Source of the DNA: a virus
DNA: 35,434 bases
IMG/VR virus record: IMGVR_UViG_3300006875_000065
Coordinates: 1-35,434 of that record
Direction: 5' to 3' (one strand)
Below, one piece after another: positions 1,243 through 15,956 of the stretch. Position 1 is the stretch's first letter. Each line of letters opens with the position of its first letter. Both the position numbers and the translations under genes were made by a program. Under the pieces are notes generated by a model. It was not told where the DNA came from and did no database searches. It was given only the letters and a program-made list of their open reading frames with translations.

Positions 1243-2424
1243 ATGCAATTGACTGAACATTTTAAACTGGAAGAAATGACTGTTTCTCCAACTGCTAAAA
1301 AACTTGGATTGAGTAATACTCCAACTCCTGAACACATTGAGAACATGAGATACTGCTGCGAGAAGATCCTTGAGCCTGTCCGTGCAAAGTTCGGCCCTGT
1401 TACAATCAACTCATCGTATCGTGCACCGCTTGTCAATAAGGCAGTCGGCGGTTCGAAGACGTCGCAGCACGTCAACGGTCAGGCAATTGACTTCGAAGTC
1501 AAGGGTGTTGACAACAAGACGGTTGCTGACTGGGTTGCTGACAATCTTGAGTTTGACCAAGTCATCCTCGAGTTCTACTCTGCAGGTGACAAGAACTCTG
1601 GTTGGGTACACGCCTCAATCAAGAAAGAAGGCGGCAACCGCAAACAGCGTATGATTGCTACGAAGTCGAAGGCAGGCGGTACCGTCTATAAACAGGTAGC
1701 TGACTTTGATCCGTCAACGACTCGCGAAGCAGGAGCTCCTCAAGTAGCAAGTCCAGCAGTTCCGCAGCACTCGGTTGTGGGTCAAAAGGTAGCTCCAGCT
1801 GCACAGGGTCTTGGTGCATTAGCGGCTCTTCAGGCTAAGTGTGGCATTGCTGCCGATGGTAAGTGGGGTCCTGGTACTTATAAGGCAGCAAGAGACTTCT
1901 TCAAGCTAACCAATAACCAGGCTGCTCACTTCTTCGGACAGTGTGCGCACGAGTCTGGTGGCTTCAAGGTATTCCAAGAGAACCTGAACTACTCGGATAA
2001 GGGTCTGAACGGAATCTTTAAGAAGTACTTCCCAACAATCGCATCGACTGCTGGATATGCTCGTAAGCCAGAGAAGATTGCCAACAAGGTTTATGCAAAC
2101 CGTATGGGCAATGGTGCAGAGTCGTCAGGTGACGGCTGGAAGTTCCGTGGGCGTGGTCCTATTCAGCTGACAGGCAAGTCGAACTATACCACATTTGCAG
2201 CAGACATTGGTCGTCCAGATGTTCTGACAAATCCTGACTTAGTTACAACTGAGCTTGCATTCGAATCGGCTCTATGGTTCTTCCGTAAGAACAACCTGTT
2301 CGCAATCGCAGACAAGGGTGTTAGCGATGCCGTTATCACTCAGATCACAAAGCGAGTGAATGGTGGAACACACGGTCTTGATGACCGTCTCAAGAAAACA
2401 AAGCAATACTTTGCTTGGGGATAA
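1243..2424 (+). CDS. Two-domain endolysin: M15-type peptidase plus GH19 muramidase/chitinase-like domain
   Basis: Cell-wall lysin of 393 aa. The N-terminal half (about residues 1-130) is a peptidase M15-like fold with zinc-ligand motifs SQHVNGQAIDF and GWVHASI, expected to cut peptidoglycan cross-peptides. After a Pro/Ala/Val-rich linker (about 165-190), the C-terminal part (about 195-393) matches GH19: GQCAHESGGF with the catalytic Glu, and FRGRGPIQLTGKSNY. The short ADGKWGPGT segment before it resembles a peptidoglycan-binding repeat remnant. The start ATG follows AAAGGA. This is the only plus-strand gene in the window and ends in a strong hairpin terminator. There is no signal peptide, so a holin would be needed. 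I see no TATAAATA upstream, so its promoter is unclear. Domain calls are firm; exact bond specificity is inferred. Confidence 0.9.
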   Translation: MQLTEHFKLEEMTVSPTAKKLGLSNTPTPEHIENMRYCCEKILEPVRAKFGPVTINSSYRAPLVNKAVGGSKTSQHVNGQAIDFEVKGVDNKTVADWVADNLEFDQVILEFYSAGDKNSGWVHASIKKEGGNRKQRMIATKSKAGGTVYKQVADFDPSTTREAGAPQVASPAVPQHSVVGQKVAPAAQGLGALAALQAKCGIAADGKWGPGTYKAARDFFKLTNNQAAHFFGQCAHESGGFKVFQENLNYSDKGLNGIFKKYFPTIASTAGYARKPEKIANKVYANRMGNGAESSGDGWKFRGRGPIQLTGKSNYTTFAADIGRPDVLTNPDLVTTELAFESALWFFRKNNLFAIADKGVSDAVITQITKRVNGGTHGLDDRLKKTKQYFAWG

Positions 2425-2429
2425 TAGAT

Positions 2430-2457
2430 TGATGGGGGCGAAAGCCCCCATCTTTTT
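2430..2457 (+). terminator. Rho-independent terminator after the endolysin
   Basis: A 9-bp stem (GATGGGGGC / GCCCCCATC) with a GAAA tetraloop is followed by TTTTT. It touches the stop codon of the convergent heat-shock gene and is strong only in the plus direction. Confidence 0.9.
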
Positions 2458-2977
2458 ACTTGGTTTTACCTTCTGTCAAGAATTCGGCAGCCTGCGACGG
2501 ATATTCATCGTCGTTAATTTCTACCTTCTTCGGCTTCTTGTGCTCAGGGATAATTGCCTCTAGAGCAATCTTTAGAATACCGTTCAGAAGAGTTGCACCA
2601 CGAATCTCTACATTGTCTGCGAGACTAAACGTGCGTGTGAACGGACGGCTAGCAAGTCCTTGATACAGGAATTGCGGGAAGACCCATGCTCCAGCCGAAT
2701 CCTCTTCAACTGCATCGAACTGAGCAGCTGCATTACCCTTAATTGTAAGTTTATCATCAGCAATCTCAATCTCGAGGTCTTGCTTGGCAAAGCCAGCAAC
2801 AGCAAGTTCAATAATGTACTTGTTCTCGTCGATCTTTTTGATATTGTATGGAGGGTATTTGGCAACAACCGCTGCAGCCTGATCTTGTGCTGCAAATAGT
2901 TTTTCTGCTACCTTATCAAATCCGACAAAGAACTGGTCGAAATCTTTGAAAGCGCGTGCGCTGTGAAAAGTTTTCAT
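2456..2977 (-). CDS. Small heat-shock protein (Hsp20/IbpA family)
   Basis: ATP-independent holdase chaperone of 173 aa. The alpha-crystallin domain spans roughly residues 40-140: YPPYNIKKIDENKYIIELAVAGF is an IbpA-type start of the domain, followed by LEIEIADDKLTIKG. The C-terminal IIPEHKKPKKVEI resembles the IbpA tail. The start at 2977 is chosen because AGGAG lies 8 nt upstream; a longer reading to 3016 has no ribosome site. A perfect late promoter TATAAATA lies at 3035-3042, so expression should be late, with virion assembly. Hsp20 genes are known in several T4-like phages. A client role in head or tail assembly is inference. Confidence 0.93.
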   Translation of the reverse strand: MKTFHSARAFKDFDQFFVGFDKVAEKLFAAQDQAAAVVAKYPPYNIKKIDENKYIIELAVAGFAKQDLEIEIADDKLTIKGNAAAQFDAVEEDSAGAWVFPQFLYQGLASRPFTRTFSLADNVEIRGATLLNGILKIALEAIIPEHKKPKKVEINDDEYPSQAAEFLTEGKTK

Positions 2978-3034
2978 GTATTTTCTCCTATTAAGCGAGT
3001 TTGTGTTGTGTGTCACCCATTAGGCGTGACGTGG

Positions 3035-3046: not shown

Positions 3047-3454
3047 TTACTTAGCTTTCTTAATACGTTCGCGTAAACGAGACGAACTGTAACTGTGTCG
3101 ACGACTACAGTAGTGGATAGGGATGTCAAGTTCACAACCGGTAAAGTCAGGCTGATTAATATAATCCATGCCAAGGAAACGAACATCCCAGCTATAACCA
3201 GACAATAGGTTCAGTAGATCTGCTTCCGTATCGTACGGAATTATATGATCGACATACTGGCAAGCATTAACCTGAATAAACCTCTCGGACAATGCCTGAA
3301 TAGGTTTGTTCTTCTCAGGCCTATCAATAGTAGGATCTGACTGAAGAGCCACGACTAAACGATCGCAATTCTCTTTGGCCTCAGCCAGCATTAAAATATG
3401 ACCCGCATGAAACAGGTCAAAGCAACTTGCTACGATACCTACACGTTCAGACAT
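3047..3454 (-). CDS. Cytidylyltransferase-like nucleotidyltransferase (TagD type)
   Basis: 135 aa, close to the usual length of TagD-like glycerol-3-phosphate cytidylyltransferases (about 130). The nucleotide-binding signature is present near the N terminus as SCFDLFHAGHILML (HxGH motif). A Ser-rich C-terminal YSSSRLRERI fits the second nucleotide-binding motif. It would transfer a CMP or AMP group to a small phosphorylated or acidic substrate; which substrate cannot be read from sequence. It is the last gene of an early unit running from 4232 down and overlaps the preceding small membrane gene by 16 nt. FAD synthetase-like or other adenylyltransferase activity is an alternative. Confidence 0.8.
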   Translation of the reverse strand: MSERVGIVASCFDLFHAGHILMLAEAKENCDRLVVALQSDPTIDRPEKNKPIQALSERFIQVNACQYVDHIIPYDTEADLLNLLSGYSWDVRFLGMDYINQPDFTGCELDIPIHYCSRRHSYSSSRLRERIKKAK

Positions 3455-4794: not shown

Positions 4795-6846
4795 CTATTT
4801 TGAGGTTGCGCGATAAACTCCATCCCAGTTTGCAGGTGCCTTCTTCATTTCGGTCATGCGATCAAGCATCATCTCATAGTATGCACTCAATGCACCGCCC
4901 CATACAGGAGCCATCTCATAAGCCATTGTCAGAGCACGATCCCAACGACCGGCACGATAATGTTCTAGGAATATGTTGTGTGCTCTCTCAGCAGCCGGTG
5001 CAAAATCCTCAACAATCGTAAAGATACGAGCCGGTTCTGTCTTGCCCTTCACGGCGATCAGGTCAAGCTCAATTACTTGGTATACATCCCTAACCGATTC
5101 GGCTGTCTGTGGCCCGACGACAAGTTTGACTCCATAAGGCTTGGATTGACCTTCGAGACGAGCAGCCAGATTAACCCCGTCGCCCAGACAAGTATAATCG
5201 AAGCGCTGATCGCTACCCATATTGCCAACCACCACAGTGGCAGTGTTAATACCAAGACCCATACCGAAAGCTGGAATGCCTTCTTTTTCAACTTCTGCAT
5301 TAAATGTCTCCAAGTCTTTTAACATATCAAGCGCTGTACGTACAGCATTCTTTGCGTGGTCTGGATCGTCAAGTGGAGCGTTCCAAAATGCCATCTGAGC
5401 ATCACCAATATACTTATCAAGCGTACCATTGTTGTCGATGATACGCTTTGTCATTGCAGTCATGTAACGGTTCATGATCTTTGTCAGACCTTGTACGTCC
5501 TCGCCATAGTGCTCTGAGATCGTAGTGAATCCACGAACGTCGGTGAACATGATTGACAATTCTCTTGACTCACCACCAAGTGCCAGGAGTTCTGGGTTCT
5601 TCTGCAACTTCTCGACCATGGCAGGTGACAGATAAGTACCGAACTGCTTCTTGATCTGTTGCTTTTGTAGGAACTCAGAGATGAACTTGACCGTATAGAT
5701 GTGCATGTAGATCAGAAGAGCTGCAAGCACGTTATATGTTACATCAAGCATTATACTATATTTGGTAAATAAGTACACCGGGAAATAAAGGTACGCGGCA
5801 AACAAGACGGCGATATATATAATTGAGAATCTAAAACGTGAGAACACGATCATTGCAAGAGTGAGAAATAAGAATGTCCCAAGATCAACCAACGGTGTCC
5901 AGTTTGGAATCGAAACCGAATCCCCAGCAATTAGCGTCTCCAGAAGACTGGCTTGTACCTGATGGGGATAGCGCGGACCTTGTGGGGTCGCTACAGGGTT
6001 GGCAACTCCAGCAGCAGTTACTCCAAGCACAACCATCTTACCCGTTAGATCCGGAAGAGATTGAGCACCGACTTCATATGTTGGAAAAGTGTAGTTCGGG
6101 TTTATGAAAACTCGGCCATATTCATCAGTTTTAATTGTTTCAAAAGAAGGAATACGTAATGCTTCAACCCCAGTCTGATTTATCTTCGCTTGATACGATG
6201 GATCTCCAGCAGCTACACGTAGCAGCTCTAGAGCAAATGCGGGGTAGTATTCGCCAGATGATTGTGCTAGAAGAGGAACTCGCCTCACGACCCCGTCTGA
6301 CTCAGGTAGGGACGATGTTATCCCAACACCGGCAGCGGCTTCTTGAAGAAGTGAGATATTACTTAGAACGCATGGATATTGAGGAAGAAACTCGGTTACT
6401 TCTCCATCGCCGATTACGGCAACGCCTGTCTTCCGAATTGTCGCACTTGCCCGTGAACAAGAGTCGCTTACAGTCTGACTAAGAACGACCGGATACTTAG
6501 TTAAAGCATCTGCAAGAACCCTATCAGTCCCCAGGCGATCAGGCTCAGGCATAAGTACAGTGCTGCCAACAAGGCCAGCCCCTCTACCGTATATCTCGCC
6601 AATGATTTTAGCATGGACTTCCCTCGGGAAAGGCCACTGACCATATTTTTCAACTGCTTTCTCCCCAATATTAACTACGACTATTTGTTCTGATTGCTTT
6701 TGTTCACCAATCATAAGATAATCATAATACTTTAGTCTGGTAGACTCAACCAAAAACGGGTCTTGAACCTTGATAGCCAGTAGGATACCAAAGGTTAGTA
6801 GAGCTAACCACGGCGACAGAGCCGATTTAATCACCTTGTTTAACAT
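4795..6846 (-). CDS. CHASE2-domain transmembrane class III adenylate cyclase
   Basis: 683 aa. An N-terminal membrane anchor (about 12-28) precedes a CHASE2 extracytoplasmic sensor domain (about 35-315: LKYYDYLMIG, WPFPREVHAKII, GRVFINPN). Three transmembrane helices follow (about 318-385), then a cytoplasmic class III cyclase domain (about 425-610). Metal-binding Asp436 (MFTDVRGFT) and Asp482 (YIGDAQMAF) are present, as are Lys478 and Thr552 (the base-selecting pair typical of ATP), and Asn559 and Arg563 in GVNLAARLE. The catalytic set looks intact, so cAMP synthesis is predicted. It is the last gene of the curli-like cassette and starts 20 nt inside the FecR gene. FecR/CHASE2-cyclase pairs occur in bacterial chromosomes; a phage copy is unexpected. 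The ligand is unknown. Confidence 0.92.
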   Translation of the reverse strand: MLNKVIKSALSPWLALLTFGILLAIKVQDPFLVESTRLKYYDYLMIGEQKQSEQIVVVNIGEKAVEKYGQWPFPREVHAKIIGEIYGRGAGLVGSTVLMPEPDRLGTDRVLADALTKYPVVLSQTVSDSCSRASATIRKTGVAVIGDGEVTEFLPQYPCVLSNISLLQEAAAGVGITSSLPESDGVVRRVPLLAQSSGEYYPAFALELLRVAAGDPSYQAKINQTGVEALRIPSFETIKTDEYGRVFINPNYTFPTYEVGAQSLPDLTGKMVVLGVTAAGVANPVATPQGPRYPHQVQASLLETLIAGDSVSIPNWTPLVDLGTFLFLTLAMIVFSRFRFSIIYIAVLFAAYLYFPVYLFTKYSIMLDVTYNVLAALLIYMHIYTVKFISEFLQKQQIKKQFGTYLSPAMVEKLQKNPELLALGGESRELSIMFTDVRGFTTISEHYGEDVQGLTKIMNRYMTAMTKRIIDNNGTLDKYIGDAQMAFWNAPLDDPDHAKNAVRTALDMLKDLETFNAEVEKEGIPAFGMGLGINTATVVVGNMGSDQRFDYTCLGDGVNLAARLEGQSKPYGVKLVVGPQTAESVRDVYQVIELDLIAVKGKTEPARIFTIVEDFAPAAERAHNIFLEHYRAGRWDRALTMAYEMAPVWGGALSAYYEMMLDRMTEMKKAPANWDGVYRATSK

Positions 6847-7918
6847 TGATAATTGTACCTCCTGCCGGGTCGTTTATTTCTACTAGGAATGACTTTCCGT
6901 TGCTATCTATATATAATGTTTTGTTCTCGTCTTTTTTAAATCTTACGTCAACCGTAGTACTCAACGTTCTTACAAGACGAATGCTATCACCTGAAAGAAT
7001 CGTCGTGATCTGAGTTGTATTGTCAAGACCATATGTTGTACCACATAGTTTAGTTCCCTCCCTAGTAACACAATCACCTCCTGCTAGATTATCATCGAGG
7101 AAGTCTTCACCAAGAAAGTTGGCATCTATTGTATTAATATCGAGGTCTGAGCTGGCCAGACTATCTTCTTTAAGATCATCTTTTGCCAGGAAGTCTACAT
7201 CCAGTTCAGATAGATCTAGAATGTTTGATCTGGTTTCACCGGTATCTTCTCCGGTATCGACCTCTTCGGCCGGTGACACAATCAACATATTATCAATCTG
7301 ATCGAGTGTCAGATTCAGAATGACCGGTCGAGTTGGTCTGCTATCAGCCGTAGATACGATTGTTGCCTGGAAAGCTTTTGTGAGAATTACGAACCCAGCG
7401 CCATTTGATACCGTGATCTCGCCTACAGATCCATCTGGTTCTGGTAATAGGATGACAAGGCTTTTACCGAAGTCATCTACAGTTGCTGCAAAGTCTGTAC
7501 CACGAACGGCGATTGTTGCTGATGGTGTGCGAAGGTTGATGTTGCCCTTGTTCATCTTACCAGACTGGCCGGTAGCGAAACGCGCAGTACCTGAGGCAAA
7601 CTTAAGAGCCATTCTTGAAGTGGATGGCTTGCCACTGTAGACAAAGTCGTCAATCACCAGCTTAGAATGTTCAGTGACCTTAACGGTAGAGTCATCAACA
7701 AACTTGATCTCGACTCTACCGTTTCCAGTCTGGATTCTATCTAACTTGGCAATGGGTAACTGAGGTCGTGTAGGAACCTTTACGGTTTTCTTCACGACCT
7801 CACTTGTACCACGTGCCTGAGTTACGTTGCCAATATTAGCATGGGCCGCCGGCGTTACACTGGTTAATAACCATAGTGCTGCCAGTGCTTGTGCTATTAA
7901 TCTTGATTGTGTCAACAT
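6827..7918 (-). CDS. Secreted FecR-domain protein
   Basis: 363 aa. The signal peptide is about residues 1-27 (hydrophobic core ALAALWLLTSV, cleavage after AHA). A FecR-type beta domain covers about 40-155 (IQTGNGRVEIKFVDDST, then NLRTPSATIAVRGTDFA, a FecR-domain hallmark). The rest has an Asp/Leu-rich stretch (about 225-280, repeats of the LDVDFLAKDDL kind) and a C-terminal beta-rich part. It should be periplasmic or outer-surface. No sigma/anti-sigma partner is seen, so this is the sensor-type FecR found beside CHASE2 cyclases rather than an iron regulator. Its first 83 nt overlap the curlin-like gene in another frame. A weak AGAAGAG lies ahead of the ATG. No in-frame Met follows until after the domain begins, so the start is likely right. 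Confidence 0.88.
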   Translation of the reverse strand: MLTQSRLIAQALAALWLLTSVTPAAHANIGNVTQARGTSEVVKKTVKVPTRPQLPIAKLDRIQTGNGRVEIKFVDDSTVKVTEHSKLVIDDFVYSGKPSTSRMALKFASGTARFATGQSGKMNKGNINLRTPSATIAVRGTDFAATVDDFGKSLVILLPEPDGSVGEITVSNGAGFVILTKAFQATIVSTADSRPTRPVILNLTLDQIDNMLIVSPAEEVDTGEDTGETRSNILDLSELDVDFLAKDDLKEDSLASSDLDINTIDANFLGEDFLDDNLAGGDCVTREGTKLCGTTYGLDNTTQITTILSGDSIRLVRTLSTTVDVRFKKDENKTLYIDSNGKSFLVEINDPAGGTIINVKQGD

Positions 7919-8534
7919 TCGTCGTACTCTTCTGGTTTACAGTCACGTTGTTTGTGCTGCCCGTAAGCGCCATTTCAACGTTCTTGCCAGCAGTTCCGTT
8001 CTGTGTCATCGCAATTGTGTTACCATCGCCTGTAACAGTTACATCATTCACAACGTCATCGGCATTGATGGTCGATGTGTATGTGTTGGTGTCACCGGTG
8101 AACGCAATGTTCTGAGTGGCACCAGTTGCCGATGCTGCTGTACCCTGATTAAATGTCAGGTTGTTTGAGTCGCCTGTTACAGCCAGAGTCTTGGTTGAAC
8201 CAGAAACGCTTGCTGCGTCACCCATATCGTATGTGACTGTGTTGTTATCACCGGTCACGGTTGAATCGATGTTCACGTTATCGGCCTGCGTAATAGAACC
8301 TTGGATAAGGTTACCGTTACCTTCTTGTGTCGACGTGATTGTCTGGTTGTTACCTTCGATCACAACACGGTTTTGCTCAGAACCGATACGGTTGTTTTGA
8401 CCCTTTTGAGTAATAGTAATCGTACTACCATTACCAACCTGGTCGATAAAAATCGAGTTAGTCGTCGACTGAGCATAAGCTAACGAACTCGTCATCAGAG
8501 ACATAATGAAAAGCGCAAATGCCTTTTTCATCAT
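7836..8534 (-). CDS. Secreted curlin-like beta-repeat protein
   Basis: 232 aa. Signal peptide about 1-22 (MMKKAFALFIMSLMTSSLAYA). The mature part is built of short Asn/Gly/Thr/Gln repeats such as GNGSTITITQKGQNN, GNNQTITSTQEGNGN and GDGNTIAMTQNGTAG. These follow the curlin pattern of N-x-hydrophobic-x-Q-x-G-x-x-N spaced about 20-23 residues apart. It ends in NQCNAGGPC with two Cys. This is the likely substrate of the CsgG/CsgF pore encoded just upstream, either an amyloid-like fibre or a beta-helical adhesin. Repeats are more degenerate than in CsgA. ATG and the csgG stop overlap by 4 nt. Confidence 0.8.
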   Translation of the reverse strand: MMKKAFALFIMSLMTSSLAYAQSTTNSIFIDQVGNGSTITITQKGQNNRIGSEQNRVVIEGNNQTITSTQEGNGNLIQGSITQADNVNIDSTVTGDNNTVTYDMGDAASVSGSTKTLAVTGDSNNLTFNQGTAASATGATQNIAFTGDTNTYTSTINADDVVNDVTVTGDGNTIAMTQNGTAGKNVEMALTGSTNNVTVNQKSTTNVDTIKINSTSTGSTMVINQCNAGGPC

Positions 8535-9319
8535 CCTTCTTCCTTGTAGTTAAAGTATCCCTTAGAGACACCTTGTTTAATTAATTGTAATACCGCTTCC
8601 TCGATAGCCATTTTGACTGCCATAGTATTAGCTTCGTTCTCAGTCATTCCGGCCTCTGCTTCGATAAGCTTCGTGCCTACATCAACAAATTTGAAAACTG
8701 AAAGATCTCTACCAACCGAGAGAACTGTTTTCGAAACTTGTACATTAAGAATTACCTCACCGGTGTTTGTATTCACACCACGCAATGAAACAACTACCTG
8801 ATCTTTGCGGTACATAGTAGTACCACCGATGCCAAGATACCGTGCTCCTGCACCACCAGATTCTAAATTCGAATCATAACCAATGATACCACCCTGGATA
8901 ATTAAACCAGCGAAGAGCATCGGCTCAAGTTTGTTGGCACCTTCTCCAATATATTCTTCACGCGTCTGTCGAACAATCTGACGTTCCTTTGCAAGATCGT
9001 CAACACGATTACGTTCAACAACTCTGAACCATGCTCCACCACCAGCCTCAGTCAGTGCAGATATCAGAAGCGCTGTACCACCTTGAGTTACAGCAGTCGA
9101 GATACTAGCAATACCATCCTTGTCTCTTCTTTGACCAGTCAGATCCGGAAAGTCATATACAGCCACAACTGCCTGTCGTTCTGGCGGTGAAAGACTCTGC
9201 AGTTCTTTTACCTGTAGCTGTACGAGTTCTGGTTTATCCTGAAGCTGAAGCGCTCCAGGTCCCATAGACATACATCCACCCAGCAAAAATGGTAATAGAA
9301 AGATTCCCCACTTTACCAT
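8531..9319 (-). CDS. csgG: CsgG-type outer-membrane curli secretion channel lipoprotein
   Basis: 262 aa, close to E. coli CsgG (277). A lipoprotein signal has lipobox LLGGC with Cys16. Family motifs: AVVAVYDFPDLTGQ near the start, GAWFRVVERNRVDDLAKERQIVRQTRE, and GGTTMYRKDQVVVSLRGVNTNTGEVI covering the transmembrane hairpin region. CsgG forms a nonameric outer-membrane pore that exports curli subunits from the periplasm. The gene overlaps csgF by 7 nt. Curli secretion also uses CsgE in bacteria; I see no CsgE here. High confidence for the family; whether the pore exports the neighbouring curlin-like protein is inference. Confidence 0.95.
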   Translation of the reverse strand: MVKWGIFLLPFLLGGCMSMGPGALQLQDKPELVQLQVKELQSLSPPERQAVVAVYDFPDLTGQRRDKDGIASISTAVTQGGTALLISALTEAGGGAWFRVVERNRVDDLAKERQIVRQTREEYIGEGANKLEPMLFAGLIIQGGIIGYDSNLESGGAGARYLGIGGTTMYRKDQVVVSLRGVNTNTGEVILNVQVSKTVLSVGRDLSVFKFVDVGTKLIEAEAGMTENEANTMAVKMAIEEAVLQLIKQGVSKGYFNYKEEG

Positions 9320-9750
9320 TTGAATCCACTCGTTGGAATGATAATCTCGGTCGTGTTACCTGCATCATCTGTAATTGAAAGAGTGATCTCTGTACTAGTC
9401 TTCTTATACTTAATAGAGTTGCCTTCAAGACTGAACTCACCTTCTTCGCCACCCATCTCACCAAACAGATTGTTTGTCAGCTGTTGAGCAAGTTGTGAAT
9501 AGATACGAGACTGCAGGTTGTTCATGAACCTGTTAAGGATAGAGTTCTTTTCCTCTAAAGCTTGTGCTTTTAACTCAGCTTCAATCTTATCAGTAATGGC
9601 TTTTTTTCTTGTAGCTTCTTGGTTTTCAATTGTAAGCCATTGAGCTCCAGCGTTCTGTCCGCTGAATGAAGGATTCTTGAATTGGAATACTATCTCACTT
9701 GCTTGGGCTGGACTGCTTAGCAGGAGTAGTAGGAGCAGGCTCTTTCTCAT
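9313..9750 (-). CDS. csgF: CsgF-type curli assembly factor
   Basis: 145 aa with signal peptide about 1-17 (MRKSLLLLLLLSSPAQA). The mature N terminus EIVFQFKNPSFSGQNAGA matches the CsgF segment that plugs into the CsgG pore (FQFxNPSF). The middle is a Gln/Asn-rich helical region (LNRFMNNLQSRIYSQLAQQLTN), and the C-terminal beta region LSITDDAGNTTEIIIP is also CsgF-like. In bacteria CsgF forms a second constriction of the channel and links the nucleator to the surface. The gene sits directly before csgG in the operon and overlaps the upstream 50-aa gene by 56 nt. Confidence 0.93.
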   Translation of the reverse strand: MRKSLLLLLLLSSPAQASEIVFQFKNPSFSGQNAGAQWLTIENQEATRKKAITDKIEAELKAQALEEKNSILNRFMNNLQSRIYSQLAQQLTNNLFGEMGGEEGEFSLEGNSIKYKKTSTEITLSITDDAGNTTEIIIPTSGFKW

Positions 9751-9847
9751 CAGGCTTATCTTTCTTCAATTTCAATTCCTTGTCAGAAGAAATACTAAGG
9801 TCAAGCGAGAATACTTTGAGGATCTCAATCTTTAGGTTTATATTCAC
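9695..9847 (-). CDS. Small charged protein of the curli cassette, 50 aa
   Basis: Not recognised. The chosen GTG start at 9847 has GGAGG 7 nt upstream, much better than any start further out. The N-terminal half is amphipathic (NINLKIEILKVFSLDLSI). The C-terminal half is Lys/Glu/Pro-rich and ends in a Thr/Ser/Lys tail. No signal peptide. It is wedged between a small membrane gene and csgF with overlaps on both sides (23 and 56 nt), so it is probably translated with them. Role unknown. Confidence 0.55.
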   Translation of the reverse strand: MNINLKIEILKVFSLDLSISSDKELKLKKDKPDEKEPAPTTPAKQSSPSK

Positions 9848-10088
9848 TGTGATCCTCCTTGATCTGCAATACAACATTCACCTTCTGATTTAATCGAATG
9901 AGATCGTTATCGAGCATACGAATACGATCAATCAGTGCAATTAAAATCACATTGGTTTCACCAATGATTGGCATTAATTTATCTGTAACGAATTTATAAA
10001 TGAACCATACGAAATATCCCATGCCAACAGCGGCGACAATAGGGAATCCATACTGCTTCACAAGTTCTGCAATTAGTTGCGGATCCAT
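9825..10088 (-). CDS. Small membrane protein A of the curli cassette, 87 aa
   Basis: An N-terminal transmembrane segment (about 13-35, YGFPIVAAVGMGYFVWFIYKF) is followed by an amphipathic, partly coiled-coil region (MLDNDLIRLNQKVNVVL) and a charged tail. The layout resembles small BhlA/holin-like proteins and matches its neighbour (10088-10375): both have FPI, a glycine-containing membrane helix, and a D-x-R-x-x-x-x-x-x-D-x-I-R element. The two are probably paralogues. The start at 10088 has GGAGAG 4-6 nt upstream. A holin, a pore partner or a membrane scaffold are all possible. Confidence 0.7.
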   Translation of the reverse strand: MDPQLIAELVKQYGFPIVAAVGMGYFVWFIYKFVTDKLMPIIGETNVILIALIDRIRMLDNDLIRLNQKVNVVLQIKEDHSEYKPKD

Positions 10089-10375
10089 CAATCTCTCCGA
10101 GCGTCGTTCTTCCCGTCTGCTCGTGCGATTCTATCTAGATCTGGTTTCAGGCCTAAAGCGGAACTAACAACTGCATCAACGCGAATAATATCATGGTTCA
10201 TGGTTTTCACACGGTTGTCTAACCCCATAATAATACCCTGCATTCCCTTGATCGCCTTTACAACGCTCTCGAGAATATAGTTGATAACAAAATACACAAA
10301 AACCCCACCGAGCAAAGCTGCTGCGATGGGGAATCCGACATCACCAATAAGTTTAAATATAACATCGTAACCCAT
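10088..10375 (-). CDS. Small membrane protein B of the curli cassette, 95 aa
   Basis: First gene of the curli-like cassette. A transmembrane helix (about 13-36, VGFPIAAALLGGVFVYFVINYI) is followed by a helical region (MGLDNRVKTMNHDIIRVDAVV) and a basic/acidic tail. It is paralogous in layout to the next gene, with which it overlaps through TGATG. There is no Shine-Dalgarno before its ATG; instead the start codon lies in an 8-bp hairpin that also holds a CATAAATA late-promoter-like box (10376 region). A holin-like role is possible but unproven. Confidence 0.7.
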   Translation of the reverse strand: MGYDVIFKLIGDVGFPIAAALLGGVFVYFVINYILESVVKAIKGMQGIIMGLDNRVKTMNHDIIRVDAVVSSALGLKPDLDRIARADGKNDARRD

Positions 10376-10395
10376 GCAGTTATTTATGCATGGGG
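10372..10395 (-). promoter_or_regulatory. Hairpin holding a late-promoter-like box and the start codon of the curli cassette
   Basis: Minus strand: CCCATGCA - TAAATAAC - TGCATGGG, a perfect 8-bp stem with an 8-nt loop. The box CATAAATA (one mismatch to TATAAATA) spans arm and loop, and the cassette's first ATG lies in the 3' arm. T4 genes e, soc and I-TevI use this design: early read-through RNA is folded shut, while late RNA starting inside the hairpin is open. Here the late transcript would be nearly leaderless. Confidence 0.5.
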
Positions 10396-10977: not shown

Positions 10978-11107
10978 GAATATTCTCTCCTACAAAATCA
11001 TCAAACGTCATATCATTAAGCTGCTTGAATACACGGTATCCAAGAAACGAAAGGATTCCTATAACAGCGACACCGGCTGCTCCGGCAATTAGTTGCTTTT
11101 TAGCCAT
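10907..11107 (-). CDS. Small membrane protein, 66 aa
   Basis: An N-terminal basic start (MAKKQ) is followed by one transmembrane helix (about 6-27, LIAGAAGVAVIGILSFLGYRVF) and a hydrophilic tail (FDDFVGENIHDQYYG and an acidic/Ser end). Function unknown. It overlaps the end of the peroxiredoxin gene by 19 nt and the 42-aa gene by 71 nt. Confidence 0.6.
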   Translation of the reverse strand: MAKKQLIAGAAGVAVIGILSFLGYRVFKQLNDMTFDDFVGENIHDQYYGRSAGYQRQEGDEGSPKS

Positions 11108-11676
11108 GCCAATATATTCTCTGGTGATGTTTCGCCGTAAGGATCTTCTGCGGTGTTATCCTCGAAGCCAGGTTCGATGAACCACTTCTCGATCTTACCG
11201 TTGTTGACGATACAAGCATACCGCCACGAACGTTCACCGAAACCAAGATTGTTTTTGTAGACGCTCATCTGCATGTCACGAGTAAAAGTACCCGAACCAT
11301 CAGGAATCATCTTGACCTTCTTGATCTTCTGTTGTTTAGCCCAACAGTTCATCACGAATGCATCGTTGACCGACACACAAACGATGTCATCGATGCCTAG
11401 ATTCTTGAACGCCTTGTAGTTTTCTTCAAAGCCAGGAAGTTGATACGTTGAACATGTGGGTGTGAATGCACCAGGAAGTGAGAAGAGTACTACACGCTTT
11501 TTAGCAAAGTAGTCGAACGTTGTCTTGTCTTCCCAACGATACGGATTTGGTCCTTCGATTGAATCATCGCGGACGCGGGTTTTGAATACGACATTAGGCA
11601 CAACCTCTGGCAGTTCGTTGAACTCGCCGTCTTTAAACTTGTGCCAATAACGTTTAACTGCAATTGTTTCTGCCAT
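11089..11676 (-). CDS. Peroxiredoxin (Prx5-like, AhpC/TSA superfamily)
   Basis: 195 aa. The thiol peroxidase active site LPGAFTPTCSTYQLPGF carries the conserved P-x-x-x-T-x-x-C and the peroxidatic Cys. The later W-R-Y segment (ERSWRYACIVNNGKIEKWFIEPG) fits the Prx5/thioredoxin fold; CWAKQQ holds a second Cys. It reduces H2O2 or alkyl peroxides with thioredoxin or glutathione. The N terminus (about 1-30) is an extra segment before the usual Prx5 domain. It lies downstream of the tRNA cluster and a 460-bp non-coding stretch, and should be read from the early promoter at 12249-12278. Protection of infected cells from oxidative stress is inference. Confidence 0.92.
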   Translation of the reverse strand: MAETIAVKRYWHKFKDGEFNELPEVVPNVVFKTRVRDDSIEGPNPYRWEDKTTFDYFAKKRVVLFSLPGAFTPTCSTYQLPGFEENYKAFKNLGIDDIVCVSVNDAFVMNCWAKQQKIKKVKMIPDGSGTFTRDMQMSVYKNNLGFGERSWRYACIVNNGKIEKWFIEPGFEDNTAEDPYGETSPENILAWLKSN

Positions 11677-12155: not shown

Positions 12156-12230
12156 TGGCTCCTCAAGATGGATTCGAACCACCGACCAGGCGATTAACAG
12201 TCGCCGGCTCTACCGCTGAGCTATTGAGGA
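12156..12230 (-). tRNA. tRNA-Asn(GTT)
   Basis: Full cloverleaf, anticodon loop CTGTTAA on stem GGCGA/TCGCC, T-loop TTCGAAT, acceptor TCCTCAA/TTGAGGA, G73, CCA encoded. First tRNA after the promoter at 12249-12278. Confidence 0.95.
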
Positions 12231-12248
12231 ATAAACTCTTATTTTCTT

Positions 12249-12278
12249 AATCTACACTATATATCAATTAATGTACAC
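12249..12278 (-). promoter_or_regulatory. Early-type promoter for tRNA-Asn and prx
   Basis: -35 GTGTACA (12272-12278), 17-bp spacer, -10 TAGATT (12249-12254). It lies inside the tRNA cluster, giving tRNA-Asn, the 460-bp stretch and prx their own start. Confidence 0.8.
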
Positions 12279-12286
12279 AGTTAATT

Positions 12287-12364
12287 TGGTGCCCTCGGCA
12301 GGATTCGAGCCTGCAACCTCTCGCTTCGTAGGCGAGTGCTCTCGTCCAGTTGAGCTACGAGGGC
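12287..12364 (-). tRNA. tRNA-Arg(ACG)
   Basis: Anticodon loop CTACGAA on stem CTCGC/GCGAG, T-loop TTCGA type (CTCGAAT), acceptor GCCCTCG/CGAGGGC, A73, CCA encoded. ACG needs wobble A-to-I editing by TadA to read CGC. Confidence 0.93.
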
Positions 12365-12369
12365 ATATA

Positions 12370-12445
12370 TGGTACCCGGTGACGGGCTCGAACCGCCGAC
12401 ATTCTCGGTGTAAACGAGATGCTCTACCAACTGAGCTAACCGGGC
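12370..12445 (-). tRNA. tRNA-Val(TAC)
   Basis: Anticodon loop TTTACAC on stem TCTCG/CGAGA, acceptor GCCCGGT/ACCGGGT with one G-T pair, canonical D-arm, CCA encoded. Confidence 0.93.
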
Positions 12446-12451
12446 ATTAAC

Positions 12452-12536
12452 TGGTACGGATGAAGGGACTCGAACCCCCACGACCGAAGTCACTGGTACC
12501 TAAAACCAGGGCGTCTACCAATTCCGCCACATCCGC
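12452..12536 (-). tRNA. tRNA-Leu(TAG)
   Basis: Class II tRNA with long variable arm. Anticodon loop TTTAGGT on stem CTGGT/ACCAG, T-loop TTCGAGT, CCA encoded, position 1:72 is G-T. Confidence 0.93.
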
Positions 12537-12537
12537 A

Positions 12538-12613
12538 TGGTGCCTTTGGAGAGATTCGAACTCCCGACACGTGGTTCTTCAAACCACTGCTCTACCAACT
12601 GAGCTACAAAGGC
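12538..12613 (-). tRNA. tRNA-Phe(GAA)
   Basis: Anticodon loop TTGAAGA on stem GTGGT/ACCAC, acceptor GCCTTTG/CAAAGGC, T-loop TTCGAAT, CCA encoded. Confidence 0.95.
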
Positions 12614-12817
12614 AATATGAATGACCACCTGCAGTGTGCCTTGATTGCTTACTTCCGGACGTTGCAATCTTCCCAGATAAAAACAATGTTGCAACAATGT
12701 CTTTATCACTTCACGGGTTCAGCCGAGGTGGTCTAGTGGCCTATATTTTTTGTAGCGAGCCCCCAATACGGTGAACCTTTGGTTATCCTTCGGGCAATGC
12801 CTTAGGCGCTGTTATAC
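12614..12817 (-). other. 204-bp tRNA spacer with a 32-bp near-palindrome
   Basis: No gene or tRNA seen. It contains an inverted repeat with 16-nt arms and no loop at 12677-12708 (centre GTTG|CAAC, 14 of 16 positions pairing). The plus strand has a D-arm-like GGTCTAGTGGCC without the rest of a tRNA. Confidence 0.4.
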
Positions 12818-12893
12818 TGGTGGAGAATAACGGGATCGAACCGTTGACCTCCTGCGTGCAAAGCAGGCGCTCTCCCAGCTGAGCTAATCCCCC
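12818..12893 (-). tRNA. tRNA-Ala(TGC)
   Basis: Anticodon loop TTTGCAC on stem CCTGC/GCAGG, T-loop TTCGATC, acceptor GGGGGAT/ATTCTCC with two G-T pairs, CCA encoded. Confidence 0.95.
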
Positions 12894-12899
12894 AATATC

Positions 12900-12974
12900 T
12901 GGTGCCGCAGGATGGAATCGAACCACCGACAAGTGGCTTATGAGACCACCGCTCTACCTCTGAGCTACCGCGAC
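12900..12974 (-). tRNA. tRNA with CAT anticodon (Met elongator or Ile2)
   Basis: Anticodon loop CTCATAA on stem GTGGT/GCCAC. G1-C72 pairs and the three G-C pairs of initiators are absent from the anticodon stem, so it is not tRNA-fMet. A CAT tRNA modified to lysidine (Ile AUA) cannot be excluded. CCA encoded. Confidence 0.88.
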
Positions 12975-12980
12975 ATATTC

Positions 12981-13054
12981 TGGTGCGGACTAAGGGAATC
13001 AAACCCTTGACCCCTGGGTGGAAGCCAGGTACGTTATCTCTACGCCAAGCCCGC
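12981..13054 (-). tRNA. tRNA-Gly(TCC)
   Basis: Anticodon loop CTTCCAC on stem CCTGG/CCAGG, T-loop TTTGATT, CCA encoded. The D-loop is A/G-rich (GTAGAGATAAC). Confidence 0.93.
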
Positions 13055-13061
13055 TTTATTC

Positions 13062-13137
<76 letters not shown>

Positions 13138-13138
13138 G

Positions 13139-13212
13139 TCGGGAATGTAGGACTCGAACCTACGACCTCCTGCTCCCAAAGCAGGCGCGCTACCAGACTG
13201 TGCTAATCCCCG
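13139..13212 (-). tRNA. tRNA-Pro(TGG), no encoded CCA
   Basis: Anticodon loop TTTGGGA on stem CCTGC/GCAGG, acceptor CGGGGAT/ATTCCCG, A73, then CGC instead of CCA. It lies one base from tRNA-Thr. It would need the host CCA-adding enzyme. Confidence 0.92.
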
Positions 13213-13236
13213 TTATTGGCCTACTATATATACAAG

Positions 13237-13389
13237 TTATAGTCGACTATCAACTAATTTCCACATAATTTGTTCAATAATATTAGCTTCTTCATCCATA
13301 TCTGCCTCAAACAAGGCGTTCTGCAGAGATCCGACATCACCGTTAACCAGTTCATCAAAATACGGTGCATCTTCTAAAAGCATGTTCAT
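13237..13389 (-). CDS. Small acidic protein, 50 aa
   Basis: Unrecognised. Acidic, helical sequence (YFDELVNGDVGSLQNALFEADMDEEANIIEQIMWKLVDS) encoded between tRNA-Pro and tRNA-Gln. The start ATG at 13389 has AAAGGA 9 nt upstream. A longer reading runs into tRNA-Gln and is rejected. Such small acidic ORFs in phage tRNA clusters are often host-interacting, but nothing here shows a role. Confidence 0.6.
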   Translation of the reverse strand: MNMLLEDAPYFDELVNGDVGSLQNALFEADMDEEANIIEQIMWKLVDSRL

Positions 13390-13406
13390 AATATATTCCT
13401 TTATAA

Positions 13407-13482
13407 TGGATGCCCTTCCAGGGCTCGAACCTGGACTCTTCTGAATCAAAATCAGACGTGTTGCCAATTACACCAAAGGGCA
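13407..13482 (-). tRNA. tRNA-Gln(TTG)
   Basis: Anticodon loop TTTTGAT on stem TCTGA/TCAGA, T-loop TTCGAGC, acceptor TGCCCTT/AAGGGCA, T73 (unusual for Gln), CCA encoded. Confidence 0.92.
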
Positions 13483-13483
13483 A

Positions 13484-13568
13484 TGGTGGGTCAGTGAGGT
13501 ATCGATCCTCCCCCGCAAACGGACGAAATTTACAGTCTCGCTGCCAGAGCCACTGGCTTTACCGACCC
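13484..13568 (-). tRNA. tRNA-Tyr(GTA)
   Basis: Class II with long variable arm, as in bacterial tRNA-Tyr. Anticodon loop CTGTAAA on stem CGAGA/TTTCG, acceptor GGGTCGG/CTGACCC, CCA encoded. Confidence 0.92.
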
Positions 13569-13696
13569 TTATTCTATACACCCTATCGGTTAACCCCATT
13601 CTAGATCGCGGTAAGGAATCCGATATTCGCCAGCGTTCCCCGTCTGTTAGTCTGGCATAGGTCTCTCCGGCGGTGTCTAGAATGCCGGATAAATTC
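13569..13696 (-). other. 128-bp tRNA spacer closed by an 8-bp stem
   Basis: ATTCTAGA (13598-13605) and TCTAGAAT (13676-13683) can pair and enclose 70 nt with an internal GCCAG/CTGGC stem. The minus frame is open for about 40 codons but lacks a start. No tRNA features. Possibly a structured RNA or a decayed gene. Confidence 0.35.
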
Positions 13697-13772
13697 TGGT
13701 GGACCCCATGGGGCTCGAACCCATGACCTACAGGTTAAAAGCCCGTTGCTCTACCTACTGAGCTAGAGGTCC
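13697..13772 (-). tRNA. tRNA-Lys(TTT)
   Basis: Anticodon loop CTTTTAA on stem ACGGG/CCTGT, acceptor GGACCTC/GGGGTCC, T-loop TTCGAGC, CCA encoded. Confidence 0.94.
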
Positions 13773-13778
13773 GTTAAA

Positions 13779-14072
13779 TTATGGATGCTTCCAAACAACG
13801 TTGCGTTGTTCTTTTACAAGACGCTTTGTTTTTTCGTCATCCTTATAAAACTTAATCCAAGAGTCATATTTTTTCATCGCTTCCTCTTTAGCTAACTCCA
13901 GTGTTGGAAATGTATTGGAACTGCTAAAACTTCCGCCATAGTATCGTACAACATTCCAATTATCCATGAACGGGAAGAAACGATAACAACAAATTGCATA
14001 CTCTGCAATAAATCCGGCCTTCTCGTTACCACGAACACGCACTTTCACGCCATAAGGAATTTTCTCAAACAT
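13779..14072 (-). CDS. Hypothetical protein, 97 aa
   Basis: Unrecognised aromatic-rich protein (ICCYRFFPFMDNWNVVRYYGGSF) with a helical Lys/Glu tail (LELAKEEAMKKYDSWIKFYKDDEKTKRL). The ATG at 14072 is preferred because TGGAGT lies about 9 nt before it; an ATG at 14087 has no ribosome site. The gene lies between tRNA-Lys(TTT) and tRNA-Lys(CTT). Function unknown. Confidence 0.65.
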   Translation of the reverse strand: MFEKIPYGVKVRVRGNEKAGFIAEYAICCYRFFPFMDNWNVVRYYGGSFSSSNTFPTLELAKEEAMKKYDSWIKFYKDDEKTKRLVKEQRNVVWKHP

Positions 14073-14097
14073 TCTCAAATACTCCATAATTAAAAAC

Positions 14098-14173
14098 TGG
14101 TAGACGATGTAGGATTCGAACCTACGACCTAAGGATTAAGAGTCCCGCGCTCTACCGACTGAGCTAATCGTCC
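14098..14173 (-). tRNA. tRNA-Lys(CTT)
   Basis: Anticodon loop CTCTTAA; the stem CGGGA/TCCTT has a mismatch at its outer pair. T-loop TTCGAAT, acceptor GGACGAT/ATCGTCT, CCA encoded. Second Lys isoacceptor of the cluster. Confidence 0.9.
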
Positions 14174-14181
14174 ATTAAACT

Positions 14182-14385
14182 TTAACCAATGTATACCCGA
14201 TACTCGGTACCGGTATCTACAGGCGCGCCAACCGTTTGACGCACGAAGTAGTAATAATCGATGAATTGATCGCCGTCGCGAGTATACACACCATGGGCAG
14301 TCCGTGCTTCTTCTTCAGAAGCGTACACACCCAACAAGATCGAACCTTCGTGAGCGAACTCACCCATCAAAACAAAAACTTCCAT
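14182..14385 (-). CDS. Hypothetical protein, 67 aa, related in pattern to the 16548-16766 product
   Basis: Starts MEVFVLMGEF, continues LLGVYASEEEARTA and ends in a Tyr-rich stretch. The pattern (VYVL-x, GVY-x-x-x-EEA) is shared with the 72-aa protein at 16548-16766, so both likely belong to one small family of unknown function. The start at 14385 is chosen for GGAGA 7 nt upstream. Promoter and leader are also near-copies of those at 16939. Confidence 0.65.
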   Translation of the reverse strand: MEVFVLMGEFAHEGSILLGVYASEEEARTAHGVYTRDGDQFIDYYYFVRQTVGAPVDTGTEYRVYIG

Positions 14386-14409
14386 GACAATCTCCATTAG
14401 TTATTATTC

Positions 14410-14439
14410 ACTCTACGACATATTACATAATTTGTACAT
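14410..14439 (-). promoter_or_regulatory. Early-type promoter for the 14385 gene and downstream tRNAs
   Basis: -35 ATGTACA (14433-14439), 17-bp spacer, -10 TAGAGT (14410-14415). The -10 flank AATATGTCGTAGAGTGAAT recurs at the 16964 promoter. Upstream lies AAAAAATGCGC, the left arm of the repeated terminator without a right arm. Confidence 0.8.
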
Positions 14440-14467
14440 CAAAAAATGCGCGGAATGAAAAATAATT

Positions 14468-14545
14468 TGGTAGGGGTAGTGGGGTTAGAACCCACACTGT
14501 ACGGATTTTAAGTCCGTTGACTCTAACCAATTGGCCCATACCCCC
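14468..14545 (-). tRNA. tRNA with TAA anticodon (Leu), short variable loop
   Basis: Anticodon loop CTTAAAA on stem ACGGA/TCCGT, T-arm GTGGG-TTCTAAC-CCCAC, A73, CCA encoded, G1-T72. The variable region is only about 5 nt, whereas bacterial tRNA-Leu normally has a long arm (as the Leu(TAG) copy here has). The D-stem is weak. Identity by anticodon only. Confidence 0.75.
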
Positions 14546-14546
14546 A

Positions 14547-14622
14547 TGGGGTGATCGACGGGTATCGAGCCCGTAACTCCGGTACCACAAACCGGCGTGT
14601 ATCCATTAACACCTCGACCACC
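14547..14622 (-). tRNA. tRNA-His(GTG)
   Basis: Anticodon loop TTGTGGT on stem CCGGT/ACCGG, acceptor GTGGTCG/CGATCAC, with the His-specific extra G(-1) facing C73. CCA encoded. Confidence 0.93.
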
Positions 14623-14739
14623 ATAAACTCGTGTCAGACCCCGCCGATTGCACGACACCTCACGACACCCGCCTACGCAGGTACCGTCTGACATTGCCCT
14701 AGTATTACCCTCAACCTGGCGGAACGTCAGGGAGTCGAA
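14623..14739 (-). other. 117-bp tRNA spacer closed by an 8-bp stem
   Basis: TGTCAGAC (14632-14639) and GTCTGACA (14686-14693) form a perfect stem enclosing an ACCTGC-GTAG-GCGGGT hairpin and two copies of GGTGTCGTG. No gene. Candidate structured RNA. Confidence 0.4.
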
Positions 14740-14829
14740 TGGCGGTGAGTGAGGGATTCGAACCCTCGTACCGTTTTCACGATAAACACCTTAGCAGGGT
14801 GCTGATTTTAACCACTCATCCAACTCACC
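14740..14829 (-). tRNA. tRNA-Ser(GCT)
   Basis: Class II with long variable arm, anticodon loop CTGCTAA on stem GCACC/GGTGT, T-loop TTCGAAT, acceptor GGTGAGT/ACTCACC, G73, CCA encoded. Its 5' 39 nt also encode the last 12 codons and the stop of the homing endonuclease; the stop TAA is read in the anticodon loop. Confidence 0.94.
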
Positions 14830-15405
14830 AATTTCTTTCCGTCGTAATATTTTTAATTTTTCCGGAAACTGATCCCATTTAGCTTTATCTAAATCGGTTT
14901 CATAACCTTTTACTTCTATATAACAATTCCATTCTTTAACAAAGAAATCCGGAAGATATGTAGAAGATTTTCCATCTGGTTTAATATAACCAAATCTTTT
15001 AGTATTTCTTGTCCATGTTAAGCCGCTGGCATCAGCGTATCGACAAAATATTAATTCCCATGAACCATCGACTTTAATTTCACCGGCAATAGGTGAAGAA
15101 TATGAATATTTTTTACACCTGCCAGCAACACATTCCCATCCGTTCGCATAGCGTTCGTTAATTTTATCTGAAAGTTTTTTCTTAGATTCTTCAGTATGTT
15201 TTTTACCTAAGAAAGTACTAGGCTTTCCTTTTGTACCAACATCATAATGAAGTTTTTTACCTTTATTCCACGGTTGTGGATTTTTAGCCTTAAATTTTTT
15301 AAATGGTGATTCGTGTTTGTCCGGATTTTCTTTACACATTCTCTGATGATTGCGCAAAGAATTTTCATTTTTGCATTCTTTATTACAAAATTGGCAAGAT
15401 AGCAT
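14791..15405 (-). CDS. Homing endonuclease with zinc finger, NUMOD3 and PD-(D/E)xK-like nuclease domain
   Basis: 204 aa. An N-terminal C2H2-like finger (CQFCNKECKNENSLRNHQ) is followed by a NUMOD3-type DNA-binding repeat (NKGKKLHYDVGTKGKP, then GKKHTEESKKKLS). The C-terminal nuclease domain has WELIFCRYAD and YLPDFFVKEWNCYIEVKG, giving the D...ExK catalytic pattern of PD-(D/E)xK/Vsr-like homing enzymes. The coding sequence is far more A/T-rich than its surroundings, a sign of recent arrival. The ATG follows GAGGAG. A late promoter lies at 15425-15432. The C terminus is encoded by the 5' half of tRNA-Ser(GCT), so the gene is fused onto an intact tRNA. Confidence 0.85.
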   Translation of the reverse strand: MLSCQFCNKECKNENSLRNHQRMCKENPDKHESPFKKFKAKNPQPWNKGKKLHYDVGTKGKPSTFLGKKHTEESKKKLSDKINERYANGWECVAGRCKKYSYSSPIAGEIKVDGSWELIFCRYADASGLTWTRNTKRFGYIKPDGKSSTYLPDFFVKEWNCYIEVKGYETDLDKAKWDQFPEKLKILRRKEIGELDEWLKSAPC

Positions 15406-15424
15406 CTTACATTCTCCTCGCTAC

Positions 15425-15432
15425 TATTTATA
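15425..15432 (-). promoter_or_regulatory. Late promoter (TATAAATA) for the homing endonuclease
   Basis: An exact TATAAATA about 20 nt upstream of the start, inside an imperfect hairpin (ACTATT/AATAGT). T4 homing endonuclease genes commonly carry late promoters of this kind. Confidence 0.75.
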
Positions 15433-15475
15433 ATAATAGTGCGTTGCATTACCGTCCTGCCCACGTTCCTAAATA

Positions 15476-15550
15476 TGGTAGCCCCGAGCGGTTTCGATCC
15501 GCCTTCTCGTCAGTGAAAGTGACGTGTCCTAGCCAGTAGACGACGGGGCC
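15476..15550 (-). tRNA. tRNA-Glu(TTC)
   Basis: Anticodon loop CTTTCAC on stem CGTCA/TGACG, acceptor GGCCCCG/CGGGGCT with G1-T72, A73, CCA encoded. Confidence 0.92.
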
Positions 15551-15551
15551 A

Positions 15552-15637
15552 TGGAGGAGGGTGATGGCATCGAACCATTTACCTTTCGGTAACTACAGTT
15601 TTCAAGACTGTGTGAGGAGCCAACCTCAGCACCCTCC
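15552..15637 (-). tRNA. tRNA-Ser(TGA)
   Basis: Class II with long variable arm. Anticodon loop CTTGAAA on stem ACAGT/ACTGT, acceptor GGAGGGT/ACCCTCC, T73 (Ser usually has G73), CCA encoded. Confidence 0.92.
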
Positions 15638-15640
15638 GTT

Positions 15641-15716
15641 TGGTGCGAGTGACAGGGATTGAACCTGTGACCTAACGATTATCGGTCGTTTGCTCTACCA
15701 GCTGAGCTACACTCGC
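15641..15716 (-). tRNA. tRNA-Ile(GAT)
   Basis: Anticodon loop CCGATAA on stem AACGA/TCGTT, acceptor GCGAGTG/CACTCGC, T-loop TTCAATC, CCA encoded. Confidence 0.95.
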
Positions 15717-15750
15717 ACATAAGAGTTTCTAACGATGTCAAAGAACATTC

Positions 15751-15825
15751 TGGCGAAGGTGCTCGGAATCGAACCGAGTTCTCAAGGTTTTGGAGACCTG
15801 CGGATTACCAGTTTCCCTCACCGAC
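15751..15825 (-). tRNA. tRNA-Trp(CCA) with a mismatched acceptor stem
   Basis: Anticodon loop CTCCAAA on stem AGGT/ACCT, T-arm CTCGG-TTCGATT-CCGAG, G73, CCA encoded. The acceptor GTCGGTG against CACCTTC leaves pairs 2:71 (T-T) and 3:70 (C-T) unpaired. Confidence 0.8.
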
Positions 15826-15831
15826 ACAGAA

Positions 15832-15907
15832 TGGCGAACTTGATGGGTTTCGATCCCACTACCTCCGCAGTGACAGTGCGGTGCTCTCCCGATTGAGCTA
15901 CAAGTCC
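15832..15907 (-). tRNA. tRNA-Asp(GTC)
   Basis: Anticodon loop CTGTCAC on stem CCGCA/TGCGG, acceptor GGACTTG/CAAGTTC, G73, CCA encoded. First tRNA of the cluster transcript. Confidence 0.95.
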
Positions 15908-15917
15908 AATGAACTCT

Positions 15918-15925
15918 TATTTATA
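15918..15925 (-). promoter_or_regulatory. Late promoter (TATAAATA) for the tRNA cluster
   Basis: An exact TATAAATA just before tRNA-Asp, immediately downstream of the early -10 box. The cluster can therefore be transcribed both early and late. Confidence 0.75.
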
Positions 15926-15926
15926 C

Positions 15927-15956
15927 ATGGTACACTAATTTTTAATTAATGTACAT
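15927..15956 (-). promoter_or_regulatory. Early-type promoter for the tRNA cluster
   Basis: -35 ATGTACA (15950-15956), 17-bp spacer, weak -10 TACCAT (15927-15932). Confidence 0.65.

Follow-up and report, generated by a model that had tools for sequence, protein, structure and literature searches.

A type VIII secretion (curli) cassette with FecR and CHASE2 cyclase genes in a further lineage of T4-like phages

A curli operon was reported in pelagimyophages in 2020 (PMC7029224), and the purpose of the phage curli genes has been debated since then. A phage curli operon has been discussed as a lysis device (PMC9004378), and CsgF, CsgG, curlin, FecR and adenylate cyclase genes, together with "histidine kinases" before csgF, have been described in pelagiphages (PMC9599517). 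In bacteria, FecR proteins and CHASE2 signalling proteins are found as pairs, which in Burkholderia are tied to biofilm control (PMC5192318). Here we studied the entire 35,434-base IMG/VR virus record IMGVR_UViG_3300006875_000065 (the window), which carries a block of curli, FecR and cyclase genes. This block is a phage type VIII secretion system (T8SS) cassette of the pelagiphage kind, here carried by a different T4-like lineage.

Eight open reading frames (ORFs) were confirmed on the minus strand, running from 10375 to 4795 in the order memA, memB, 50-amino-acid (50-aa) protein, CsgF, CsgG, curlin-repeat protein, FecR-domain protein and CHASE2 cyclase (Table 1). An earlier note on this DNA had listed the same eight genes at the same coordinates, and Pfam matches were obtained for CsgF, CsgG, FecR, CHASE2 and the cyclase. 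Its idea of a curli-type export route coupled to a FecR/CHASE2-cyclase pair was also borne out. Its statement that no described phage operon joins both was wrong, since Pelagibacter phage HTVC008M and Methylophilales phage Melnitz carry CsgF-CsgG-curlin-FecR-curlin-cyclase and the T8SS of pelagiphages is reported to include FecR and adenylate cyclase (PMC9599517). As in those phage cassettes, the csgF, csgG and curlin-repeat genes of the window were adjacent and ordered, FecR and cyclase genes lay downstream, the genome was that of a phage, and one or two small genes preceded csgF, a place taken here by memA and memB.

The possibility, raised earlier, that the contig is a chimera of phage and host DNA was ruled out, because the same block recurs in 67 other viral contigs that encode relatives and because the clamp loader and SbcC/SbcD genes of the window are closest to those of T4-like phages. 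The nearest relative of the gp46-type (SbcC) gene was in Stenotrophomonas phage DLP6 (54%), followed by Melnitz (50%), which by sequence places the window phage in a T4-like lineage nearest to DLP6; DLP6 itself was not among the CsgG or cyclase matches in the search of phage records. The cassette genes exhibited ratios of nonsynonymous to synonymous substitution (dN/dS) of 0.01 to 0.16 in pairs with finite dS. The cassette is real, conserved and under purifying selection, and is of the published kind.

Linkage within the cassette was counted over 84 distinct viral CsgG loci, with the cyclase scored only where more than 8 kb lay downstream. In testable loci, CsgG was accompanied by CsgF (68/68), the curlin (77/77), FecR (74/74) and the cyclase (23/23); that is, on contigs of sufficient length the cassette is inherited all or nothing. 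Selection acts on the fibre-plus-sensor block as a whole, which makes ideas built on the pore alone unlikely. The block is optional, as natural deletion indicates: in L160 (4734-5120), the first 50 to 60 csgF codons were fused in frame to the last cyclase codons, with the intervening genes deleted and memA, memB and the 50-aa gene retained. The same junction recurred in a second contig (L260) from a different sample, and this deletion scar shows that the cassette is dispensable. A search of 50,697 phage records found query-covering CsgG relatives in HTVC008M (two records), Melnitz (four records) and one short "Salmonella phage" record, OR851715 (L071). The last was rejected as a carrier: it is unverified, spans 1.5 kb and holds a csgG that matches that of enterobacteria, and it is likely to represent host contamination in the phage database.

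The paralogues memA and memB are probably small membrane proteins confined to phages. Of the first set of 71 CsgG-matching loci, 49 carried them; the other 22 had flanks that were too short, and among these 71 no locus with long flanks on both sides was without them (49/49 testable). In L030, L032, L033, L035, L037 and L038, the memA-memB-50-aa unit was placed 3' of the cyclase on the opposite strand, so that the linkage goes beyond a shared operon. Five metagenomic contigs (L152-L155 and L160) held the three genes with CsgG not nearby. The 50-aa ORF is genuine: its GTG at 9847 is preceded by aaggagg, and the xINLKIEILKVF N terminus is kept in relatives, even where the gene does not touch csgF. 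With this linkage observed, the three products are probably a phage-specific inner-membrane unit working with the rest of the cassette. None of the 21 memA/memB members examined matched kinase families; the published "HK" ("histidine kinase") label for the genes before csgF, which by position would be memA and memB, is probably wrong. A weak match of memA/memB to a holin family was observed. No phage record without the cassette carries either gene, however, and "generic phage holin" was therefore rejected as a general label.

This absence from cassette-free phages, unlike the distribution of a general holin, bears on the proposal made for Melnitz that CsgG, together with CsgF, serves as a pinholin- or secretin-like pore for the timing of lysis, to which the other genes are accessory (PMC9004378). 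The weak holin-family match and the late-promoter motif described below are in keeping with such a pore, which the earlier note had also listed among possible roles. On the other side, the curlin, FecR and cyclase genes were never lost separately from CsgG in testable loci, a phage with the cassette deleted exists, and the phage encodes its own endolysin with M15 peptidase and GH19 domains. The lysis role is weakened by these observations, and we consider it quite improbable.

The mature start of the window CsgF, SEIVFQFKNPSFSG, resembles the CsgG-binding peptide of Escherichia coli CsgF. The FQF(K/R)NPxF peptide is kept, which counts against the idea that CsgF of phages may have lost its binding to CsgG (PMC9004378). 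The CsgG profile aligned with E. coli CsgG from end to end (3.7e-97), and Cys16 was invariant. The earlier concern that CsgG and CsgF might lack their pore regions thus does not hold at the level of the fold, but the constriction residues are changed: in the alignment to enterobacterial CsgG, Asn55 is replaced by Ser and Phe56 by Ile, and Tyr51 is not conserved. No match to CsgE (PF10627) was found in the window, a possible genome fragment, in agreement with what had been noted before.

The curlin Pfam match of the next protein fell under the cut-off in the whole-library scan (0.0016) and passed in a single-genome search (23.6 bits). Its GxxN units begin at residues 45, 72, 95, 121, 147, 169 and 192, with a spacing of 22 to 27, and are imperfect, as expected from the previous remark that no CsgA-like perfect repeats are present. 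The predicted structure was a parallel beta-solenoid with a predicted local distance difference test (pLDDT) value of 83.5. A fold search with this model returned common beta-helices only (SufB/SufD, Z 18, and pectinases), none of them specific to curlins. The C-terminal cysteine pair was conserved in close phage relatives, and one curlin of L072, a bacterial locus discussed below, likewise ends QC...C.

The FecR protein begins with a signal peptide and ends with a conserved curlin-like strand. Its N-domain shares the fold of PupR's periplasmic signalling domain (Z 15.6, root mean square deviation 2.5, 135 residues). Separately, residues 27-97 exhibited weak homology to the domain that anchors an ice-binding adhesin at the cell surface (5ix9, E 0.0025). 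The architecture of an anti-sigma FecR, with a cytoplasmic part, a membrane segment and a periplasmic domain, was not observed, as the signal peptide comes first and PF04773 was the only domain found; a role as an iron regulator is therefore not supported. This is relevant to the suggestion that CsgG forms a permanently open pore through which nutrients or iron compounds are taken up to supply phage production (PMC7029224, PMC9599517). The altered constriction residues and the lack of CsgE in the window would suit such a pore, but CsgF and the curlin would then be needless, yet they are always present, and the FecR protein is without the anti-sigma part of iron regulators. We regard uptake as very improbable.

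In the cyclase, the class III residues for metal binding, purine binding and the transition state were intact (D436, K478, D482, T552, N559 and R563). They include the Lys/Thr pair typical of adenylate cyclases, and on its sequence the enzyme is a class III adenylate cyclase. The Melnitz (L069) and L047 cyclases have Ser for the catalytic Asn, and activity may be lost in some members. A PADLOC match to the Pycsar cyclase PycC (1.3e-24) was rejected, as it was confined to the shared catalytic core and the window enzyme is a CHASE2 membrane cyclase; no Pycsar effector was found among the seven proteins scanned. A stand-alone protein of 99 to 138 aa, homologous to the last ~110 cyclase residues, was observed just 5' of csgF in L179 (16058-16417), L180, L188, L190 and L193. 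The intact window enzyme and the retention of the cyclase in every testable locus are compatible with the sensor being the main product, the surface protein merely feeding a FecR-CHASE2 signal that changes host cyclic AMP (cAMP) and physiology. The Ser in Melnitz and the equally strict retention of the pore and curlin genes speak against this, and we hold it to be rather unlikely.

The motif [TC]ATAAATA, of the T4 late promoter type, was searched up to 60 nt from gene starts. Of 104 distinct loci, 41 had it near the start of memA, in many cases at -13, compared with 1.9 in shuffles. It preceded csgF in 14 of 77 and, in the loci scanned, never lay within that distance of csgG, fecR or memB. At 42 sites over all loci, the start of the motif was followed by an ATG at a distance of exactly 13 nt, compared with 0 to 5 for scrambled 8-mers. 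This -13 class also covers genes outside the cassette, such as that for the DNA end protector of HTVC008M. A scan for sigma-70 promoters gave no excess over shuffles. These data suggest that the memA-led cassette is probably expressed late from a gp55-type promoter. Given T4 late-promoter geometry, transcription from the -13 motif would presumably start at or beside the ATG, and leaderless mRNAs are predicted; when this idea was examined through Shine-Dalgarno sites, the -13 motif was found to leave no space for one.

The mechanism that we favour, by a modest balance, is late export of a curlin-type beta-solenoid via CsgG/CsgF, with FecR and the CHASE2 cyclase monitoring it. The cassette would be switched on late from the promoter before memA, and CsgG and CsgF would, by homology, form an outer-membrane pore. 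The curlin-type protein would cross this pore and, at the surface of the infected cell, build up a beta-solenoid fibre or patch. The exported FecR protein may dock on the fibre, or may report its export to the periplasmic CHASE2 domain, upon which the cyclase, whose catalytic residues are present, would make cAMP inside the cell. As the most conjectural step, the phage might benefit from a cell surface altered late in infection, by adhesion or by the blocking of other phages. Several lines of evidence favour this mechanism as a whole, namely the family matches, conserved gene order, all-or-nothing inheritance and purifying selection; the end-to-end CsgG alignment, CsgF peptide, curlin solenoid, PupR-type FecR fold and intact cyclase residues; the late-promoter motif before memA and csgF; and the bacterial pairing of FecR and CHASE2 proteins, with its tie to biofilm control in Burkholderia. 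Several points weigh against late export with sensing. Melnitz in culture showed no fibre or clumping (PMC9004378), the curlin repeats are degenerate and the structural neighbours of the curlin model are generic beta-helices, Tyr51 and Asn55 of the E. coli CsgG constriction are not retained and the window has no CsgE, and the late promoter is called from its motif.

A scan of 84,980 species genomes, from which the best 80 relatives were kept, revealed three apparently non-phage csgF-csgG-curlin-FecR-cyclase loci, two in metagenome-assembled genomes (MAGs) of Caulobacteraceae (L072, L073) and one on a 705-kb contig of Hyphomonas (L074). All three were without memA/memB, and the flanks of L072 and L074 were ordinary bacterial genes. 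FecR and cyclase thus do occur in bacterial curli operons, contrary to PMC9599517. The FecR orthologue was scarce: among 398 genomes of the order only 2 encoded it, and among 385 of the class only 1, in each case seed genomes of the search. In other MAG loci memA/memB do occur (L075, L077, L082); these contigs probably belong to phages and ended up in bacterial bins, and L077 has genes for a clamp loader and a lysozyme-like protein.

In the CsgG tree, L072-L074 fell inside the window clade of 17 rows (100/99), which in turn lay within a phage clade distinct from other bacterial CsgG (100/99). A topology uniting the phages to the exclusion of the bacterial three was rejected (approximately unbiased [AU] test, p 0.002). 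The FecR tree nested these loci in the same way (99/95); here the AU p value (0.049) was borderline and the branch to L074 was very long. In the cyclase tree, a clade comprising most phages had the bacterial rows at its base and other phages lay outside it, a difference from the CsgG tree that suggests cyclase exchange between phages. For CsgG, transfer from phage to cell would be the simplest reading, the rival being repeated captures from bacteria not yet sampled. The CsgG and FecR trees did not confirm the direction of transfer given in PMC9599517, from alphaproteobacteria to phages, although bacterial lineages still unsampled could restore it. As a tentative and still doubtful wider view, the FecR-cyclase form of the cassette may be a phage-held surface organelle that bacteria acquired, with memA, memB and the 50-aa protein as a phage-only membrane module, made late from leaderless mRNAs.

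Table 1. Features of the window discussed in the text
Feature	Position	Strand	Description	Pfam E value
T4-late-promoter-like site	10381..10388	-	CATAAATA; 5 nt before the memA ATG (position -13)	
memA	10088..10375	-	95 aa; N-terminal membrane segment; phage-only family phrog_18771	
memB	9825..10091	-	88 aa; memA paralogue	
50-aa protein	9695..9847	-	GTG start; conserved xINLKIEILKVF N terminus; lysine-rich tail	
CsgF homologue	9313..9750	-	145 aa; signal peptide; mature start SEIVFQFKNPSFSG	1.7e-24
CsgG homologue	8531..9319	-	262 aa; lipobox LLGGC	7.5e-48
Curlin-type secreted protein	7836..8534	-	232 aa; seven GxxN units; predicted beta-solenoid; C-terminal Cys pair	
FecR-domain exported protein	6827..7918	-	363 aa; ends in curlin-like strand GTIINVKQ	5.5e-12
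CHASE2 adenylate cyclase	4795..6846	-	683 aa	CHASE2 2.6e-36; cyclase 8.2e-18
Two-domain endolysin	1243-2424	+	M15 peptidase + GH19 chitinase-like domain	

Elsewhere in the window, the cassette is flanked by genes for Hsp20, a heptose-phosphate adenyltransferase-like protein and a peroxiredoxin (2456-3016, 3047-3454 and 11089-11676, minus strand). A run of 23 tRNA genes with a nearly complete amino-acid set occupies 12156-18775 on the minus strand, and an Rfam scan returned tRNAs only.

These results narrow the candidates for the purpose of the phage curli genes. New here are the putative late promoter ahead of the cassette, the two phage-only membrane proteins and the rare bacterial copies inside the phage tree, as are the all-or-nothing inheritance and the deletion scar. 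The cultured carriers HTVC008M and Melnitz allow each point to be tested, and the rare Caulobacterales operons provide a cellular version for study.

Among known systems, the cassette of the pelagiphages and Melnitz (HTVC008M, Melnitz and HTVC023P-type podophages) shares the memA, memB, CsgF, CsgG, curlin, FecR and cyclase order with the window. The window differs in belonging to another T4-like lineage, with a CsgG identity of only 43-47%, and in having no second curlin gene between FecR and the cyclase as in HTVC008M and Melnitz. With E. coli curli it has CsgG, CsgF and curlin repeats in common, whereas CsgE is absent, FecR, the cyclase and memA/memB are added, and the constriction residues differ. 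The Burkholderia BiofilmReg operon (PMC5192318) likewise places an exported FecR-domain protein beside a CHASE2 signalling protein, but its output is a histidine kinase rather than a cyclase and it has no curli genes. The Caulobacterales operons (L072-L074) have the same order and domains as the window, with CsgG up to 65% identical, and differ in their bacterial flanks, in lacking memA/memB and, in L072 and L073, in having two curlin genes before FecR.

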